This document shows positions 5,859-13,975 of a stretch of DNA of 14,004 nucleotides, piece after piece. A program made the translations under genes and the position numbers. Position 1 is the first letter of the stretch, and each line of letters starts with the position of its first letter. Origin of the DNA: Candidatus Poribacteria bacterium (GTDB lineage: Bacteria; Abyssobacteria; SURF-5); assembly GCA_016215705.1 (NCBI GenBank), contig JACRIR010000185.1, positions 1 to 14,004 of the forward strand. Reading direction: 5' to 3'. The notes under the pieces are model-generated. The model searched no databases. It worked only from the letters and a program-made list of their open reading frames with translations, and had not been told where the DNA came from.

Positions 5859-7319
5859 TCAAAGTCCGCCCGCAGTCCGCATCATTCTGAACACATCGGT
5901 GTTCTCGATGTATCCGTGCACGACATCCGCCCGGCCTCCGTAACCTGCGAGCAGAACAGGTATGGCATAATGCTCGGCCGTCGGCCATGCGATCCCATAT
6001 CTTGTTCCAAGAACTCTTCCCAGCGCCAGCATAGGATAGCCCATCTCGCGGTATTTCGGTTTGATCACATGGAACGGCGAAACGGGCTCTCCTTTCAAAA
6101 CAAATGCCGCCTCGGCATCGGTCAGTTCGATTCCGACGTGCTCACGGACCAGTTTCTTCAATTCAACGCTCGACGGTTTCTTCCCAATCAAGTAACCCAG
6201 GTACTCGAATGATGCATCCTGCCGGGATACTGCCTTGAGCGCTTCGCTGTCAGGATAGACCGTGTCGCCAAATTCCTCCGAGTATCGGGCCGTGAGACAC
6301 GGAGCGCCGGTCGCATGGTCCGCGGTGACGAAAACCGCGGTGTCTTCTTGCTTCTTTGCAAAAGCATATGCGACGCCGACTGCGTCGTCAAAGTCGAGTG
6401 TATCCGCCATCAGCGACGCGATATCGTTGTTATGCGCGGCGTGGTCGATGCGTCCGCCCTCGACCATCAGGAAGAAGCCTTTTTCGTTCTTCGAGAGCAT
6501 CTCGAGCGCTGCCTTGGTCATTTCCGCAAGCGATGGAACATTGGCTGCATCGTCCGGCTGCCGGTCGAGCGCATACGGCAGATGCGAGACCGCGAACAAA
6601 CCCAAAAGCTTCGTCTCTTTCGCCGGGGTGAGCAATTCGTCCCTGTTAGTCGCAAGCCGATATCCTGCCGCAGCGGCTTTTTCAAGAAGATTGAGAGTGT
6701 CTTTACGTTCGGATTTGCCGCCGGCGCCCGCAACCGGCGCAAGCTTGCCGAAGTCGGAGACTGGCCTGTCTTGCGGAACCCAATGAGCCAGTCCGCCACC
6801 CAACAAGATATCGATTCCCCCATCGAGCAACTGTTCGGCGATTTCGGCTTCCGAATCCCGCTCCTCAACGTGAGCGACAAAGCAGGCTGGTGTGGCGTGG
6901 GTCAAACGCGTGGTTGTGACAATGCCCACGCTTCGCGAACCCTTTTGTGCAATCTCGAGAATCGTCGTCAGCGGCTTGCCTTGCGGGCTCATCGAAATCA
7001 TTCCGTTGGCGGTTCTCTCACCCGTCGCCATCGCAGTGGCCGCCGCGGCGGAATCGGTCACCAGTGTGCCCAGGGCCGAAGCGTGCACCAGCGCGAGACG
7101 TCCTTCGCTGACAATGCGCTCGATCCACAATTCTCGTTTCTCCATAATCTGCGCATAGTCTTTGGCGAGTCCGATAACCTCCGGTCCCATGCCGTCGCCT
7201 ATGAGGAGGATTATGTTCTTCGCCGGCGGCGAGGGCCGAGTGGTGGCCAAGCCCCCGCTGCGGCCACATGCGATGAAAGTGGCGAAAAACACATAGACAA
7301 GGATTCTCGTTGATTTCAC
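5859..7319 (-). CDS. Alkaline phosphatase (PhoA superfamily), probable lipoprotein
   Basis: It hydrolyses phosphate monoesters outside the inner membrane with a two-zinc/magnesium site. The 486-residue product begins VKSTRILVYVFFATFIAC, a lipoprotein-like signal with Cys18 as likely lipid-bearing residue. Conserved motifs follow in order: NIILLIGDGMG (metal ligand Asp42), VTDSAAAATA (nucleophile Ser90), TTTRLTHATP, MVEGGRIDHAAH (Glu287, Asp292, His296), VTADHATG (Asp334, His335) and AEHYAIPV (His450). An insert of roughly 90 residues lies between the last two. The GTG start at 7319 is supported by GGAGGA about 9 nt upstream and by the 4-nt GTGA overlap with the kinase stop; a GTG at 7367 would spoil the signal peptide. 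No Pho-box is evident. Coupling to a kinase gene is unusual for this family. Substrate unknown. Confidence 0.93.
   Translation of the reverse strand: MKSTRILVYVFFATFIACGRSGGLATTRPSPPAKNIILLIGDGMGPEVIGLAKDYAQIMEKRELWIERIVSEGRLALVHASALGTLVTDSAAAATAMATGERTANGMISMSPQGKPLTTILEIAQKGSRSVGIVTTTRLTHATPACFVAHVEERDSEAEIAEQLLDGGIDILLGGGLAHWVPQDRPVSDFGKLAPVAGAGGKSERKDTLNLLEKAAAAGYRLATNRDELLTPAKETKLLGLFAVSHLPYALDRQPDDAANVPSLAEMTKAALEMLSKNEKGFFLMVEGGRIDHAAHNNDIASLMADTLDFDDAVGVAYAFAKKQEDTAVFVTADHATGAPCLTARYSEEFGDTVYPDSEALKAVSRQDASFEYLGYLIGKKPSSVELKKLVREHVGIELTDAEAAFVLKGEPVSPFHVIKPKYREMGYPMLALGRVLGTRYGIAWPTAEHYAIPVLLAGYGGRADVVHGYIENTDVFRMMRTAGGL
7316..7319 (-). promoter_or_regulatory. GTGA stop/start overlap coupling kinase and phosphatase
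   Basis: The kinase ends CGG TGA and the phosphatase starts GTG AAA, sharing GTGA. The phosphatase ribosome-binding site (GGAGGAG) is embedded in the last kinase codons. This is the standard layout for translational coupling, so the two proteins should be made together. Confidence 0.8.
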
Positions 7320-9043
7320 CGGGATGTCTCCTCCGGTTGCAGCGCGTTCGTCCGGGAGAGCCCCCACGCAAACCCCGGCCCGGATTGCCCCGCCTCATAT
7401 TCCACAACGCGCAATTCGTCGCGACCCGCTGAGTCGTCAAATGTCACAAAATACACCTTTTGGCCGTCCACGACGGCGGAAGTCTTCATCCGAGCCGTCG
7501 GCAGGTCGGTCAGCCGCTTTCCGTCAGCGGCGCGATACGCAACCAGCCTGCTTTCGCCGGAGGGCACGAAAAGGACCCCATCTTTCAGAGTAGGAGAGAG
7601 CTTGGCGGAGCCATTTGAGGCCGAGCCACTTGTCTTGTCGGTCCACTTTGCCTTTCCTGTTTCGGCGTCTATTGCAAATACTGTTCCCTCGCGGGTGCAT
7701 ACGTAGAGTGTCCCGTCCATGAGCGCCGGCGCCGTGAACACACAGCCGCCCGTATCAAATTTCCAGATAATCCTGCCTCCTTCTCGGGCGTCGAGGGCAT
7801 AGACATATCCGTCCCATGATCCGATGTATACGGCGTCTCCGTCAACCAGGGGCGCAGCGGTAATCTTGTCATTGGTTTTGAAGGTCCATTTGGCTCGACC
7901 CGTCCCGAGCTCGCACGCATACAGCGTCCCGTCTTCCGCTCCGAGAAACAGCGTGTCATCCGAGATCGCGGGGGATGCGAACATCCGCCCGTTGATTGCG
8001 AATGCGGGCCGCGATGCGGGCCCCCTTGCAGGCGCGCCGCCCGGCCTTAGCCAGATGTAGCCGAACAGCGCCAGATTGATCACTATGCTTGCCGCCAGAA
8101 CGGCTCTTATACGCGCAGGCGTCTCGATAACAATGCGCTCTCGCACGCGTGGGCCGGGGCGCTCCCCCTCGCCTGCGCGCGCAGGTTTAGCCTCGATTAT
8201 CTTCGTCGGCGCCTCGAGTTCAGCGCGCATGTTTTGCGGGACCGCCTGGCTGATGGCGTTGATTACGTGCCGGAAACTGTCGTAGCGGTCAGCCGGCTGT
8301 TTCTCCAGCATCTTGCTTACTACGTGCGCGAGATTCCCCGGGATTTCGGGATTCAGAAGCTTGGGAGATTCGGGCGCGCGGGTGAGGTGCATATGCAGCA
8401 CTTCCATCGCCGTTCCGCCTTTGAACGGGAGCCGTCCCGTCAACAGTTCATAGAACACTACGCCCAGCGAGTAGATGTCTGTGCGCCGGTCAATTGCTGT
8501 ACCCGAAGCCTGTTCCGGCGACATGTATTCCGGAGTGCCCATGACGCTGCCGGTCATGGTCAACCGCGTGCCCTCCTCGATGCGCGCTATGCCGAAGTCC
8601 ATAATCTTGAAAACCCCGTCCTCGTCCGCCATGATGTTGTCCGGCTTGACATCGCGGTGGATGATTCCGCGCGAATGTGCAAGGTCGAGGGCGTCCGCTA
8701 TGTCAATGATAACACGTGCCGCCCGGGCAGGCGGGAACCGGCCCTTTTGTTTCAGCAAAGACCCCAGCGTAGGCCCGGCGAGATATTCCATTGCGAAGTA
8801 ATGCAGGCCGTCCTCCTCGCCGATTTCATGGACCTTCACGATATGAGGATGGTCTAGCTGGGAAACCGCGTTGGCCTCGCGCCGGAAACGGTCGATGTAG
8901 TTCAAGTTCCGGGTCGATTCGGGTAGAAGTGTTTTGAGAGCAATCTTCCGCCCGCTCTCAGAGTCGCGGGCCAGATACACAACGCCCATTCCGCCCTTGC
9001 CGATTTCCTTCAGGATAGTGTATTTGCCGATCTGTCCCTGCAA
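7316..9043 (-). CDS. Hanks-type Ser/Thr protein kinase with transmembrane segment and PQQ beta-propeller
   Basis: A membrane receptor-like kinase of 575 residues that phosphorylates proteins on Ser/Thr. The cytosolic kinase domain (about 8-270) is complete: glycine loop GKGGMG (15-20), Lys37, Glu56, HRDVKPDN (129-136), DFG (149-151) and GTPEYMSPEQ (169-178). HRD keeps the Arg of kinases activated by phosphorylation of the activation loop, and that loop is rich in Thr/Ser. After a linker (about 270-310), one membrane helix spans about 313-333. The rest (about 345-575) holds PQQ-type propeller blades (LFLGAEDGTLYACELGTGRA, VYIGSWDGYVYALDA, LYVCTREGTVFAIDAETGKA), placed outside as sensor or docking surface. 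The start is TTG with GGGAGA 5 nt upstream. Its last four bases overlap the phosphatase start; 39 nt separate it from the small zinc-ribbon gene upstream. Ligand and targets are unknown. Confidence 0.94.
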   Translation of the reverse strand: MQGQIGKYTILKEIGKGGMGVVYLARDSESGRKIALKTLLPESTRNLNYIDRFRREANAVSQLDHPHIVKVHEIGEEDGLHYFAMEYLAGPTLGSLLKQKGRFPPARAARVIIDIADALDLAHSRGIIHRDVKPDNIMADEDGVFKIMDFGIARIEEGTRLTMTGSVMGTPEYMSPEQASGTAIDRRTDIYSLGVVFYELLTGRLPFKGGTAMEVLHMHLTRAPESPKLLNPEIPGNLAHVVSKMLEKQPADRYDSFRHVINAISQAVPQNMRAELEAPTKIIEAKPARAGEGERPGPRVRERIVIETPARIRAVLAASIVINLALFGYIWLRPGGAPARGPASRPAFAINGRMFASPAISDDTLFLGAEDGTLYACELGTGRAKWTFKTNDKITAAPLVDGDAVYIGSWDGYVYALDAREGGRIIWKFDTGGCVFTAPALMDGTLYVCTREGTVFAIDAETGKAKWTDKTSGSASNGSAKLSPTLKDGVLFVPSGESRLVAYRAADGKRLTDLPTARMKTSAVVDGQKVYFVTFDDSAGRDELRVVEYEAGQSGPGFAWGLSRTNALQPEETSR

Positions 9044-9082
9044 GTGTTTCTCCCACGAAAGGAGCGTATCTTTCGGCTGTCC

Positions 9083-9307
9083 TTATTTCTCCAACGTGAA
9101 ATCAAACTGAAACCCGTCATATGGACACCAGCCACTCCGCTGCGCTTTCTCGACGTAGAACATACGATCACACGTCGGGCATTGCACCCACATAAAATTC
9201 GCGCTGTTCACGCGTGTCTCGGGCATCGCCTTGCGAGTCGAGATGTCCCATGCGGCGAGACCGATCAACGCTCCTATGAGAATTATGAGCAGTGTTTTGT
9301 ACAGCAT
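9083..9307 (-). CDS. Small membrane-anchored zinc-ribbon-like protein
   Basis: The 74-residue product has one N-terminal membrane helix (about 3-20, LLIILIGALIGLAAW) and a short soluble tail with CPTC (Cys43, Cys46) and CPYDG (Cys61). The spacing resembles a rubredoxin-like or zinc-ribbon knuckle pair, but the fourth position is Asp64 instead of Cys, so a Cys3-Asp site or a degenerate ribbon is likely. The helix with few positive charges before it could also be an uncleaved signal; topology is not certain. GAGGAG directly abuts the ATG, an oddly short spacing that may mean weak translation. It lies 39 nt upstream of the kinase in the same direction and is probably co-transcribed. I do not recognise a named family. 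Confidence 0.7.
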   Translation of the reverse strand: MLYKTLLIILIGALIGLAAWDISTRKAMPETRVNSANFMWVQCPTCDRMFYVEKAQRSGWCPYDGFQFDFTLEK

Positions 9308-9478
9308 CTCCTCAGATTGACCCCTTTCAACTGAAAATCAAATGTGCGGAAGTCGGCGGTCGAAGGCCGAGTATTAGAGATAGGCGAAAAAGAAAAGACG
9401 AAAGACGACAGGGGCGCAGAAAGCAATAATCCGGAATCCGGAATCCAATACTAAAGGTGAGAGGAAAGCAAGGTCTAC
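9308..9478. other. 171-nt spacer with heptamer-phased low-complexity DNA
   Basis: No gene, terminator or convincing promoter is seen here. The main content is a run with seven-base phasing (9382-9451), including AAAGACG twice and AATCCGG 2.7 times. Whether the vWA transcript continues through it into the zinc-ribbon and kinase genes cannot be decided from sequence. Confidence 0.5.
9382..9451. repeat. Degenerate heptamer array A
   Basis: Cut in sevens from 9382 the DNA reads AGGCGAA, AAAGAAA, AGACGAA, AGACGAC, AGGGGCG, CAGAAAG, CAATAAT, CCGGAAT, CCGGAAT, CCAATAC. Two perfect period-7 runs (9394-9408 and 9428-9446) fall in the same phase. The same AGGCGAA unit recurs on the minus strand at 13910-13930, and the CCGGAAT unit recurs at 13831-13852. 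Confidence 0.55.
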
Positions 9479-11782
9479 TCATTTCCCAATCTCCTTTTTC
9501 AACTGTTCAAGAATGCCGGCAAACTTCTGCTGTGCCCGCCCCGCGGCATTGGCATTCTCCTCGAGCAACGCGACATCTTTGACCGTGTTTTTCTCGATGA
9601 GGAGAAAAAGCACATTGTCACCCATCGAATCGGGAAAGAAATAAAACTTGTCACCGAGGTTTCTCCAGTCAAACACGTATCCGGTGATTTCTTCACCGTC
9701 GGCGAAAATGATCTTTATCCGGTGGCCTGCACGAGGGACTTTGAGCGAAAGCAGGTCTTTGGTCAATTGGCCGTCGAAATCGCGCACAAACGCGGCGGCC
9801 TTGAGTTCGTAGAATCGCACATACGACTCCTTGCGGGAGATTACGTCCGCCCTGTTCAGGAAACGGAAGCCCTCCGCCTTGGTATCCCATGAGAGCGGCC
9901 AACCATGCTGGACCCCGGAGTCCAGGAAATAGAGAACTACCTGTCTTAGCGGCTTTGGAACCTCATAACGGAACTCGATCGCGCCGAACTTGATGGTATC
10001 AAGATGCACCAACTGCACTTGACCCGTTCTCGATTTATTGTTGACGATCACTTCGTCGGTCCCTTGCATAGCCTCGACGATTGTATGAACGTCATCCCGC
10101 GTCCTCAGCCCTGTGAACCTATAGGCCCTGTCGATCATCGACTTGTGCGGCAAGTCGACGTCCACTTCCTCTCCGACGCCGACTACGATTTCCTTGGAAC
10201 CTTTCTTTTCAGTGAGGCGTGCAAGGTTTATGTCTTTCATCATGCCCCTGGTCGGGTCGCTTGTCACAATAAGCCTGCCAGCGGGCCGCGCTTTATGCGC
10301 GCGATAATCAGAGATCGCCGTCCTCACGTTTCGCGAGGCGAACAGAGCCGCAGCAACCGCGGCAATGCAAACGATCACCAATCCAAAATAAACAGCGACT
10401 GTCCTGAAGGCGACGCCACGTCTTCCAACTTCCACTGATATGGGGATTTCGGATTGCGCGAACGCCCATCCGGCCGGCGGAATCAGCCTCACCACACCCT
10501 CGTATTTTCCCCCGGCCTGTTTTGCCACAGGCTGTCGGAGGGCAACCGTCACGGCCACTCTGATCTCCCGGGGTTTCATCGAGGGAGAAATCGTCAGCTC
10601 GAGTCCCTCGGGCAGTTGAAGATTGGCGCTAATCGACAAGGCATCGAGACTCGACGGAAAGTCGGTCCCGCTCGGGGTAATCGTGATGTTTCGCGTTTCT
10701 TCGTATGTGCCGCGAAAACCGGTGGGCCCGAACGACAAGGGAGAAAGCACGTGCACGTGCAACGACTCCGCAATCGAAAAATCAAACGGAACCCGGCGCG
10801 GCGAGAGCAGCAGGGCCTCAGGCTCCGCCGGCTGAAAAACAAAGACGCCCGAATAGCTGCCCTGCGCAAACCCTCGAGTCTCGACGCTCAACTTCTCGGA
10901 CCAGGGACTCTGACGGCACTCGATGCGCCTTGGCCCGACATCGAAAAACCTGTCGAGCGTGCCTTTGGCAAACTCAGCCTCGACTGCCATCTCTATCATG
11001 GTGTGTTCTTTAGGAGACCGGCGCGGGACAAAATTGATACGGAAAAAGGCATGTGTCGGAGTGTCCGGGAACTGGCCGAGATGGCTGATCGAGTCCGCTA
11101 TCCTCACGTCCGTAAGAGAGAGACCCTCGAGGCGTTCCTTGTCCTGGGGCCAGCGCACCGCAAAGGCCCCCGCGGCGCGCAAATATTCCTGCACGTCTTT
11201 CTCGATTCGGTCGCCGACTGAGAAGTAGTAGAAGCAGTAGTCTTCTTCGGGTTTGAGGTCGCCGTATCTGGCGAGGATATCCTGCAATGTGACGCTCTCA
11301 CTCCGCGCATCTTGCGGATCGCGGCGGCCGTCGCTTATCAGCAGCAGCAACCTTTCGCCGCCGGGATTCGAGACCGTGGAGGCCTTAATATCCGCCAGCC
11401 CTCTCTCCAGGGCCGGAAAATAGCTTGTATACGGTCCGCCCGGACGCAATTGGAGCAACTGCGACTTTAGTTGCTCGATGTCACCCTGCCTCTTGATTCT
11501 TCCCGATGCAATCAAAACGGTATTTGTCGAAAACTGGTAGCATGTGAACGAATCGCCTGCGCGCGCTCCGCTCACGAAGCGATTCAATATCCGATTAATC
11601 GAGGGAAGAAACGGAGAAATGCTTTCCGAACAATCGACAAGAACGACTGCGTCCTGTGGCGGAAATTGTCCACTGTGAACGTCAGGAGGGGATAGGCACC
11701 AGAGAAACAGAAAAAAGACGGTCAGACGGTGTGTGGCGCGCCTTCTTTTATGTTTGGGCATCTCACCCGGCCTAATTGCCAT
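9479..11782 (-). CDS. Membrane protein with extracytoplasmic vWA domain and cytosolic FHA-like and DUF6982-like regions
   Basis: The 767-residue product has a basic N-terminus and hydrophobic stretch (RLTVFFLFLWCL, 19-30) as signal peptide. A von Willebrand A domain (about 43-215) keeps the full MIDAS metal site: DCSES (Asp50, Ser52, Ser54), Thr119 and Asp151 in LLISDG. A long beta-rich region (about 225-455) leads to a membrane helix at about 461-483. The cytosolic part contains an FHA-like fold (about 505-607; note VDVDLPHKSMI, GTDEVIVNNKS, LDTIKFGAIEFRYE) lacking the usual GR...SRxH phosphothreonine pocket, then a section like DUF6982 (LKAAAFVRDFDG, FADGEEITGYVFDW, NTVKDVALLEE) and a helical tail. 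vWA domains bind protein partners through metal. Context with a Ser/Thr kinase suggests a signalling scaffold. ATG 11782 is used; its GGAG lies 11 nt upstream, and ATG 11761 is an alternative. Confidence 0.85.
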   Translation of the reverse strand: MAIRPGEMPKHKRRRATHRLTVFFLFLWCLSPPDVHSGQFPPQDAVVLVDCSESISPFLPSINRILNRFVSGARAGDSFTCYQFSTNTVLIASGRIKRQGDIEQLKSQLLQLRPGGPYTSYFPALERGLADIKASTVSNPGGERLLLLISDGRRDPQDARSESVTLQDILARYGDLKPEEDYCFYYFSVGDRIEKDVQEYLRAAGAFAVRWPQDKERLEGLSLTDVRIADSISHLGQFPDTPTHAFFRINFVPRRSPKEHTMIEMAVEAEFAKGTLDRFFDVGPRRIECRQSPWSEKLSVETRGFAQGSYSGVFVFQPAEPEALLLSPRRVPFDFSIAESLHVHVLSPLSFGPTGFRGTYEETRNITITPSGTDFPSSLDALSISANLQLPEGLELTISPSMKPREIRVAVTVALRQPVAKQAGGKYEGVVRLIPPAGWAFAQSEIPISVEVGRRGVAFRTVAVYFGLVIVCIAAVAAALFASRNVRTAISDYRAHKARPAGRLIVTSDPTRGMMKDINLARLTEKKGSKEIVVGVGEEVDVDLPHKSMIDRAYRFTGLRTRDDVHTIVEAMQGTDEVIVNNKSRTGQVQLVHLDTIKFGAIEFRYEVPKPLRQVVLYFLDSGVQHGWPLSWDTKAEGFRFLNRADVISRKESYVRFYELKAAAFVRDFDGQLTKDLLSLKVPRAGHRIKIIFADGEEITGYVFDWRNLGDKFYFFPDSMGDNVLFLLIEKNTVKDVALLEENANAAGRAQQKFAGILEQLKKEIGK

Positions 11783-11814: not shown

Positions 11815-11843
11815 ATTTTAACACACGAACGTGATGAAGTCAA
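11815..11843 (-). promoter_or_regulatory. Promoter of the vWA-protein gene
   Basis: On the minus strand TTGACT (11843-11838), exactly 17 nt, then TAAAAT (11820-11815). Both boxes match consensus at five of six positions and the spacing is optimal. The start near 11808 gives a leader of about 26 nt. This starts a new transcript after the acyltransferase gene. Confidence 0.72.
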
Positions 11844-13830: not shown

Positions 13831-13852
13831 ATCCGGAATCCGGAATCCGGAA
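13831..13852. repeat. Heptamer array C (ATCCGGA x3)
   Basis: ATCCGGA is repeated three times without error, plus one extra A: 22 bp of perfect period 7. It is the same unit as the AATCCGG run at 9428-9446, and a single GAATCCGGA occurs at 13731-13739. The unit ends are CCGG-centred and partly self-complementary. Confidence 0.7.
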
Positions 13853-13902
13853 CAAGATGGACATGGAGGCGGAAACGAGAAAACAGGAGCCGGCGAACTG
13901 TT

Positions 13903-13944
13903 TGCTCCCTTCGCCTTTCGCCCTTCGCCTTTCCTCTGCCCTTT
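13903..13944. repeat. Degenerate heptamer array D (TTCGCCT-type)
   Basis: Successive sevens read TGCTCCC, TTCGCCT, TTCGCCC, TTCGCCT, TTCCTCT, GCCCTTT. Three nearly identical units (13910-13930) form the core. On the minus strand the unit is AGGCGAA, which also opens array A at 9382. Confidence 0.55.
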
Positions 13945-13956
13945 TGGGCCTGCTGC

Positions 13957-13975
13957 TCGCGGGCGGCGCCCGCGA
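13957..13975. repeat. GC-rich perfect hairpin near the window end
   Basis: TCGCGGGC (13957-13964) pairs perfectly with GCCCGCGA (13968-13975) around GGC, followed by ATATATAAA. It could be a REP-like element or the core of a terminator for a gene beyond the window; the flank is AT-rich but not a T run. Confidence 0.45.

Follow-up and report, generated by a model that had tools for sequence, protein, structure and literature searches.

Mycobacterium tuberculosis PknD has a cytosolic Ser/Thr kinase, one transmembrane (TM) helix, and an external beta-propeller, and its gene lies in a predicted operon with pstS2, which encodes an exported phosphate-related protein (PMC3322341). Deinococcus and Streptomyces kinases combine a kinase domain with PQQ repeats (PMC1262709; AfsK type). 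These kinases have other operon partners and are discussed in secondary-metabolism regulation. In archaea, ArnA and ArnB together with ArnC and ArnD bring a vWA domain, an FHA domain, and Ser/Thr kinases into one module (PMC5300886, PMC6509490), and the vWA protein ArnB is a substrate of the kinases ArnC and ArnD (PMC5300886). The Arn FHA protein is a separate one, of a subclass recognizing double pSer/pThr motifs.

The genes described here lie in the window, the 14,004-bp stretch of DNA that we analyzed, which is the whole of contig C119 in a 5.47-Mb genome of 270 contigs (G000). The family of this genome is "Candidatus Abyssubacteria" (PMC6121073); the main text of that description does not mention kinases or phosphatases. 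Four complete genes, all on the minus strand, follow one another in the order vWA gene, small gene, kinase gene, and alkaline phosphatase gene. The predicted architecture of the kinase and its pairing with an exported phosphate-related protein resemble those of PknD. However, the PknD propeller is six-bladed, whereas ours has about five blades and is BamB-like; the kinase is partnered here with an alkaline phosphatase, and its gene comes third, after the vWA and small metal-site genes. As in the Deinococcus and Streptomyces proteins, the kinase domain is joined to PQQ/BamB-type repeats, but nothing at this locus points to secondary metabolism. The block shares with Arn a vWA domain, an FHA-like domain, and a Ser/Thr kinase, but here a single transmembrane protein unites the FHA-like and vWA parts, and its FHA pocket has been lost. 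The closest solved relatives of the phosphatase by profile are the alkaline phosphatases of PDB entries 3wbh (E of 2e-92) and 3e2d (E of 9e-89), whose active-site residues it keeps; unlike those, it is encoded downstream of a kinase gene. We use Arn and PknD/PstS2 as working analogies and do not place the block in either system. It is apparently an undescribed envelope-signaling operon built of known parts, none of which is new by itself.

Gene order and distribution

The genes and the sites that flank their starts are as follows.

11815 to 11843, minus strand: sigma-70-type promoter-like site, TTGACT-17-TAAAAT, with TG before the -10 hexamer
9479 to 11782, minus strand: open reading frame of the vWA membrane protein gene, with the start more likely at ATG 11761
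9083 to 9307, minus strand: gene for a small single-TM protein of 74 amino acids with a putative metal site, CPxC...CPYD
7316 to 9043, minus strand: receptor-type Ser/Thr kinase gene with a TTG start, encoding Pkinase plus BamB/PQQ-type repeats
7328 to 7334, minus strand: GGAGGAG, ribosome-binding-like site of the phosphatase gene, as read from the sequence
5859 to 7319, minus strand: exported alkaline phosphatase gene (PF00245, E of 2.4e-88) with a GTG start

We preferred ATG 11761 because an MPK start and a GGTGAG ribosome site are common to the G002 orthologue.

Our sample of the phylum was three genomes from one family and three genera: G000, which is the window's own, G001, and G002. Contigs C131 of G001 and C135 of G002 carry these four genes as well, with order and orientation unchanged. 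The preliminary description of the window had reported four codirectional genes and had named gene order in other genomes as one way to check its reading, which a lack of conserved order in every related genome would have refuted; the order recurs in both relatives, so that the block is found in all three sampled genera and its arrangement is not chance. Identities to the window's proteins (G001 and G002, respectively) were 44% and 51% for the vWA protein, 68% and 64% for the small protein, 56% and 59% for the kinase, and 54% and 65% for the phosphatase. The phosphatase had a single match per genome, the full-length kinase with its propeller was found only in this block in each of the three genomes, and full-length orthologues of all four genes occurred nowhere else in them. 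Upstream, G001 and G002 have two genes in common, glycosyltransferase-like and deacetylase-like (named from sequence alone), where the window has an MBOAT gene, and neither relative has the window's downstream genes next to the block. Because the flanking genes in the window do not travel with the block, the shared unit is exactly these four genes.

In a gene-order control that covered selected loci, further vWA paralogues of the three genomes likewise proved to lie in shared blocks (groups A and B). With only three genomes, and with other blocks shared as well, conservation of the order speaks moderately for joint function when taken by itself. This sharing of other blocks would also fit co-transcribed envelope genes needed under the same condition that have no common pathway, complex, or kinase-substrate relationship, as would the widely varying intergenic spacing: 171 nt between the vWA and small genes in the window versus about 14 nt in G002, and -4 (window), 13 (G001), and 147 nt (G002) between the kinase and phosphatase genes. 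We regard such mere co-transcription as a serious possibility and rank it second among the readings considered here. Against it, the block stays together while the window's neighbors are unshared, and no full-length orthologues of all four genes were found elsewhere in the three genomes.

We searched 386 genomes, three from this phylum and 383 from outside it. In the latter, the vWA profile matched nothing at full length and gave partial DUF6982 or vWA matches only, and the small protein had only weak matches. No kinase match at an E of 1e-85 or better outside the three genomes extended into the propeller. The phosphatase homologues inspected in four outside genomes had no neighboring kinase gene recognized by motif, a further difference between the window's phosphatase and the 3wbh/3e2d type. 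The full four-gene set was not found in the 383 genomes, and, as far as sampled, it is restricted to this lineage.

Promoter-like site, probable operon, and alkaline phosphatase

In a consensus scan, the promoter-like site of the window ended 53 nt before the vWA ATG. At the orthologous positions, G001 has TTGACT-17-TAGAAT 51 nt before the vWA gene and G002 has TTGACA-18-TACTAT 54 nt before it; all three are consensus matches. When the 200 nt before the small, kinase, and phosphatase genes were scanned at the same threshold, no site exceeded it except a 9/12 match before the G002 kinase gene, and no conserved promoter-like site comparable to that of the first gene preceded the other three in the three genomes. 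Since each of the three genomes has a promoter-like site before the first gene and no conserved one before the others, the four genes likely form one operon, which we consider well supported.

The exported alkaline phosphatase, whose GTG had been described as overlapping the kinase stop, was confirmed in the window, where the GTG and the kinase TGA share the letters GTGA (7319 to 7316). Its nucleophile Ser lies in DSA and is accompanied by Asp/Glu/His metal ligands, as in PF00245, and residues D42, S90, E287, D292, H296, D334, H335, and H450 are invariant in the three orthologues. A lipobox is clear in G002 (LGGC), weak in the window (FIAC), and absent in G001; lipid anchoring is therefore not common to the three orthologues. 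The preliminary description had singled out translational coupling of the kinase and phosphatase as the odd feature of the locus. This did not hold: the relatives have gaps instead of an overlap, so the overlap is particular to the window genome and is ruled out as a conserved coupling.

The phosphatase bears on whether the operon serves, as the preliminary description suggested, a phosphate or surface-integrity response in which the propeller, sensing a product of the phosphatase, would tune the kinase. A phosphatase gene in the operon whose product retains its active-site residues would suit such a response, and the predicted pstS2-pknD operon of M. tuberculosis, which pairs a propeller kinase with a phosphate-binding protein gene, is a precedent (PMC3322341). 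However, no Pho-box-like site exceeded shuffled expectation in the three upstream regions (best, 8 to 9/14, with an enterobacterial consensus), and the overlap coupling is not conserved. We judge this response improbable.

vWA membrane protein and its FHA-like domain

The protein encoded by the first gene has the following parts.

11282 to 11653, minus strand: vWA domain with an intact MIDAS (DxSxS, T, D), predicted to lie outside the cytoplasm
10337 to 10408, minus strand: predicted TM helix (helix 452-475)
9962 to 10279, minus strand: FHA-like domain without phosphothreonine-binding residues, placed by alignment and by Pfam matches of paralogues
9563 to 9940, minus strand: DUF6982 domain (PF22478), by Pfam

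Pfam VWA and DUF6982 matched over the cutoff, and the protein has a signal-like N terminus, one predicted TM helix, and beta-sandwich regions, in agreement with its earlier description as a membrane vWA protein. Its model (mean pLDDT, 81.5) has a pTM of 0.51, and so the packing of the domains is uncertain. The model matched vWA structures with Z scores of about 14 to 18, among them ArnB-type vWA; the search used the whole model, and its list was filled by vWA domains, with little bearing on the FHA-like and DUF6982 parts. We found no mention of DUF6982 in a literature search, and several unrelated families also include short proteins that consist of this domain alone.

The vWA protein belongs to a vWA/FHA-like/DUF6982 family whose paralogues number about 20 or more across the three genomes, and within this family the three operon proteins form a clade with 100/100 support. 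Pfam FHA matched 17 of 20 aligned family members (best E, 1.3e-14), and the operon trio was unmatched even at an E of 0.5. By this comparison the FHA-like part is FHA derived, with an identity visible only through paralogues at the same aligned position. The motifs of an FHA pocket are GR, SxxH, and N(G) (PMC1262709). The operon trio has lost the Arg, the Ser, and the His (0/3 each) and keeps the Asn (3/3), with the G002 protein carrying an insertion at the pocket and its Arg position set by hand from the second motif copy; the paralogues have Arg in 3, Ser in 5, His in 18, and Asn in 19 of 19. Thus, the inside FHA-like part noted earlier is FHA derived, and a role for it as a phosphopeptide reader is unlikely because the pocket Arg, Ser, and His are lost in the operon orthologues; we rejected the domain as a phosphothreonine reader for the operon clade. 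The same residues weigh on a classical phospho-relay, in which the FHA domain of the vWA protein would bind phosphothreonines made by the neighboring kinase. The FHA ancestry of the domain and the retained Asn are in keeping with a relay, but the three missing residues and the failure of Pfam FHA to match the trio make it very improbable.

Kinase and small protein with a putative metal site

The kinase has three recognizable parts.

8279 to 9022, minus strand: protein kinase domain, with HRDVKPDN, DFG, and SPEQ intact
8048 to 8116, minus strand: predicted TM helix (helix 11-33 of the C-terminal model)
7400 to 7969, minus strand: BamB-like beta-propeller of about five blades, predicted outside, from the model and fold matches

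The catalytic Lys and the HRD, DFG, and SPE motifs mark a Hanks-type kinase, whose catalytic residues do not vary among the three orthologues. The model of the C-terminal part (mean pLDDT, 76) shows the TM helix together with about five blades, which resemble those of BamB most closely, and profile and fold matches were mainly to BamB-type propellers. The kinase and a propeller predicted outside the membrane, as first proposed, were therefore retained, but not the PQQ: the term is only the name of the repeat, and nothing indicates PQQ binding.

The small membrane protein with a metal site was also present as described, with an N-terminal TM helix and a putative site of three Cys plus Asp; CPxC and CPYD are found in all three orthologues. 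The Pfam zinc-ribbon match was subthreshold only, and on a zinc-ribbon reading (two CxxC-type knuckles) the fourth ligand would be Asp. Relatives of 280 to 305 amino acids in the same genomes keep CPYC. Topologies of the block proteins are predicted, and the membrane orientation of the small protein is ambiguous.

Spacers at 9327 to 9478 and 13845 to 13960 of the window contain repeated GGATTCCGGATT-like and pyrimidine- or GAAGG-rich stretches and are mutually similar.

Proposed mechanism

We tentatively favor, at somewhat less than an even chance, an inner-membrane Ser/Thr-kinase signaling module encoded by one operon, with the vWA protein as partner or substrate of the kinase; a receptor kinase with such a partner is the most economical mechanism. 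While the operon is well supported, the steps that follow are what we infer. Transcription from the promoter before the vWA gene would give a single transcript of the four genes. Outside the membrane, the BamB-like propeller may bind a ligand or a partner, possibly the outside part of the vWA protein, and this binding would set the activity of the kinase, for which the vWA protein's FHA-like/DUF6982 tail in the cytosol may be the target. The vWA protein itself would be a membrane scaffold or effector whose contact with the kinase does not depend on phosphothreonine docking. That the FHA pocket was lost in just those proteins whose genes share an operon with the kinase argues against such docking and for another contact. 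The small metal-site protein may play an accessory part in the complex. The alkaline phosphatase is probably a periplasmic enzyme that is co-expressed with the others; its predicted place on the opposite side of the membrane argues against a protein phosphatase that counters the kinase, and, should the predicted sides hold, it could not reverse phosphorylation in the cytosol.

The kinase-vWA module is favored by the gene order in three genera, the propeller kinase found only in the block, the single-copy phosphatase, the unshared flanks, and the promoter-like site. Further support comes from the 100/100 clade, the intact MIDAS, the invariant catalytic residues, a second vWA-kinase pair in G001 (below), and the precedent of ArnB phosphorylation by ArnC and ArnD (PMC5300886). 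If correct, this reading would make a kinase and its partner in an uncultured lineage of the deep subsurface accessible to testing. It would also present an FHA-derived domain whose phosphopeptide pocket was lost precisely in the clade that has a kinase in its operon, and it would offer an initial hypothesis on DUF6982, which would form the cytosolic terminus of a transmembrane protein.

Paralogues of the vWA protein

A broader and rather unlikely idea is that the vWA/FHA-like/DUF6982 proteins are a lineage-specific family of general membrane signal couplers, of which the operon branch was paired with its own receptor kinase and traded phosphopeptide reading for direct contact with it. Paralogue loci L032 to L051 of the three genomes encode vWA-TM-FHA-DUF6982 proteins in orthologous groups, some with their own conserved neighbors, such as L040/L041/L047 and L044/L046/L048. 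A general vWA-kinase linkage was rejected: beyond the operon trio, in the stretches examined, a kinase-motif gene was near only one paralogue, L051. At this G001 locus (7670 to 14841), a divergent vWA paralogue has a kinase gene directly downstream, with the called frames overlapping by 23 nt, and the third gene of this second vWA-kinase neighborhood begins with FHA-like sequence.

The vWA proteins of L044/L046/L048 have lost the MIDAS (DSSEA/DSSKN/DSSGN, with Thr and Asp replaced by Ala), and the group shows long gene-order conservation despite this loss. L050 (7661 to 8719) encodes a DUF6982 protein with a Cys/His-rich N terminus and no vWA part. On contig C56 of G000 (25917 to 26681), the match to a vWA-family paralogue crosses one in-frame TAG and may represent a decaying copy.
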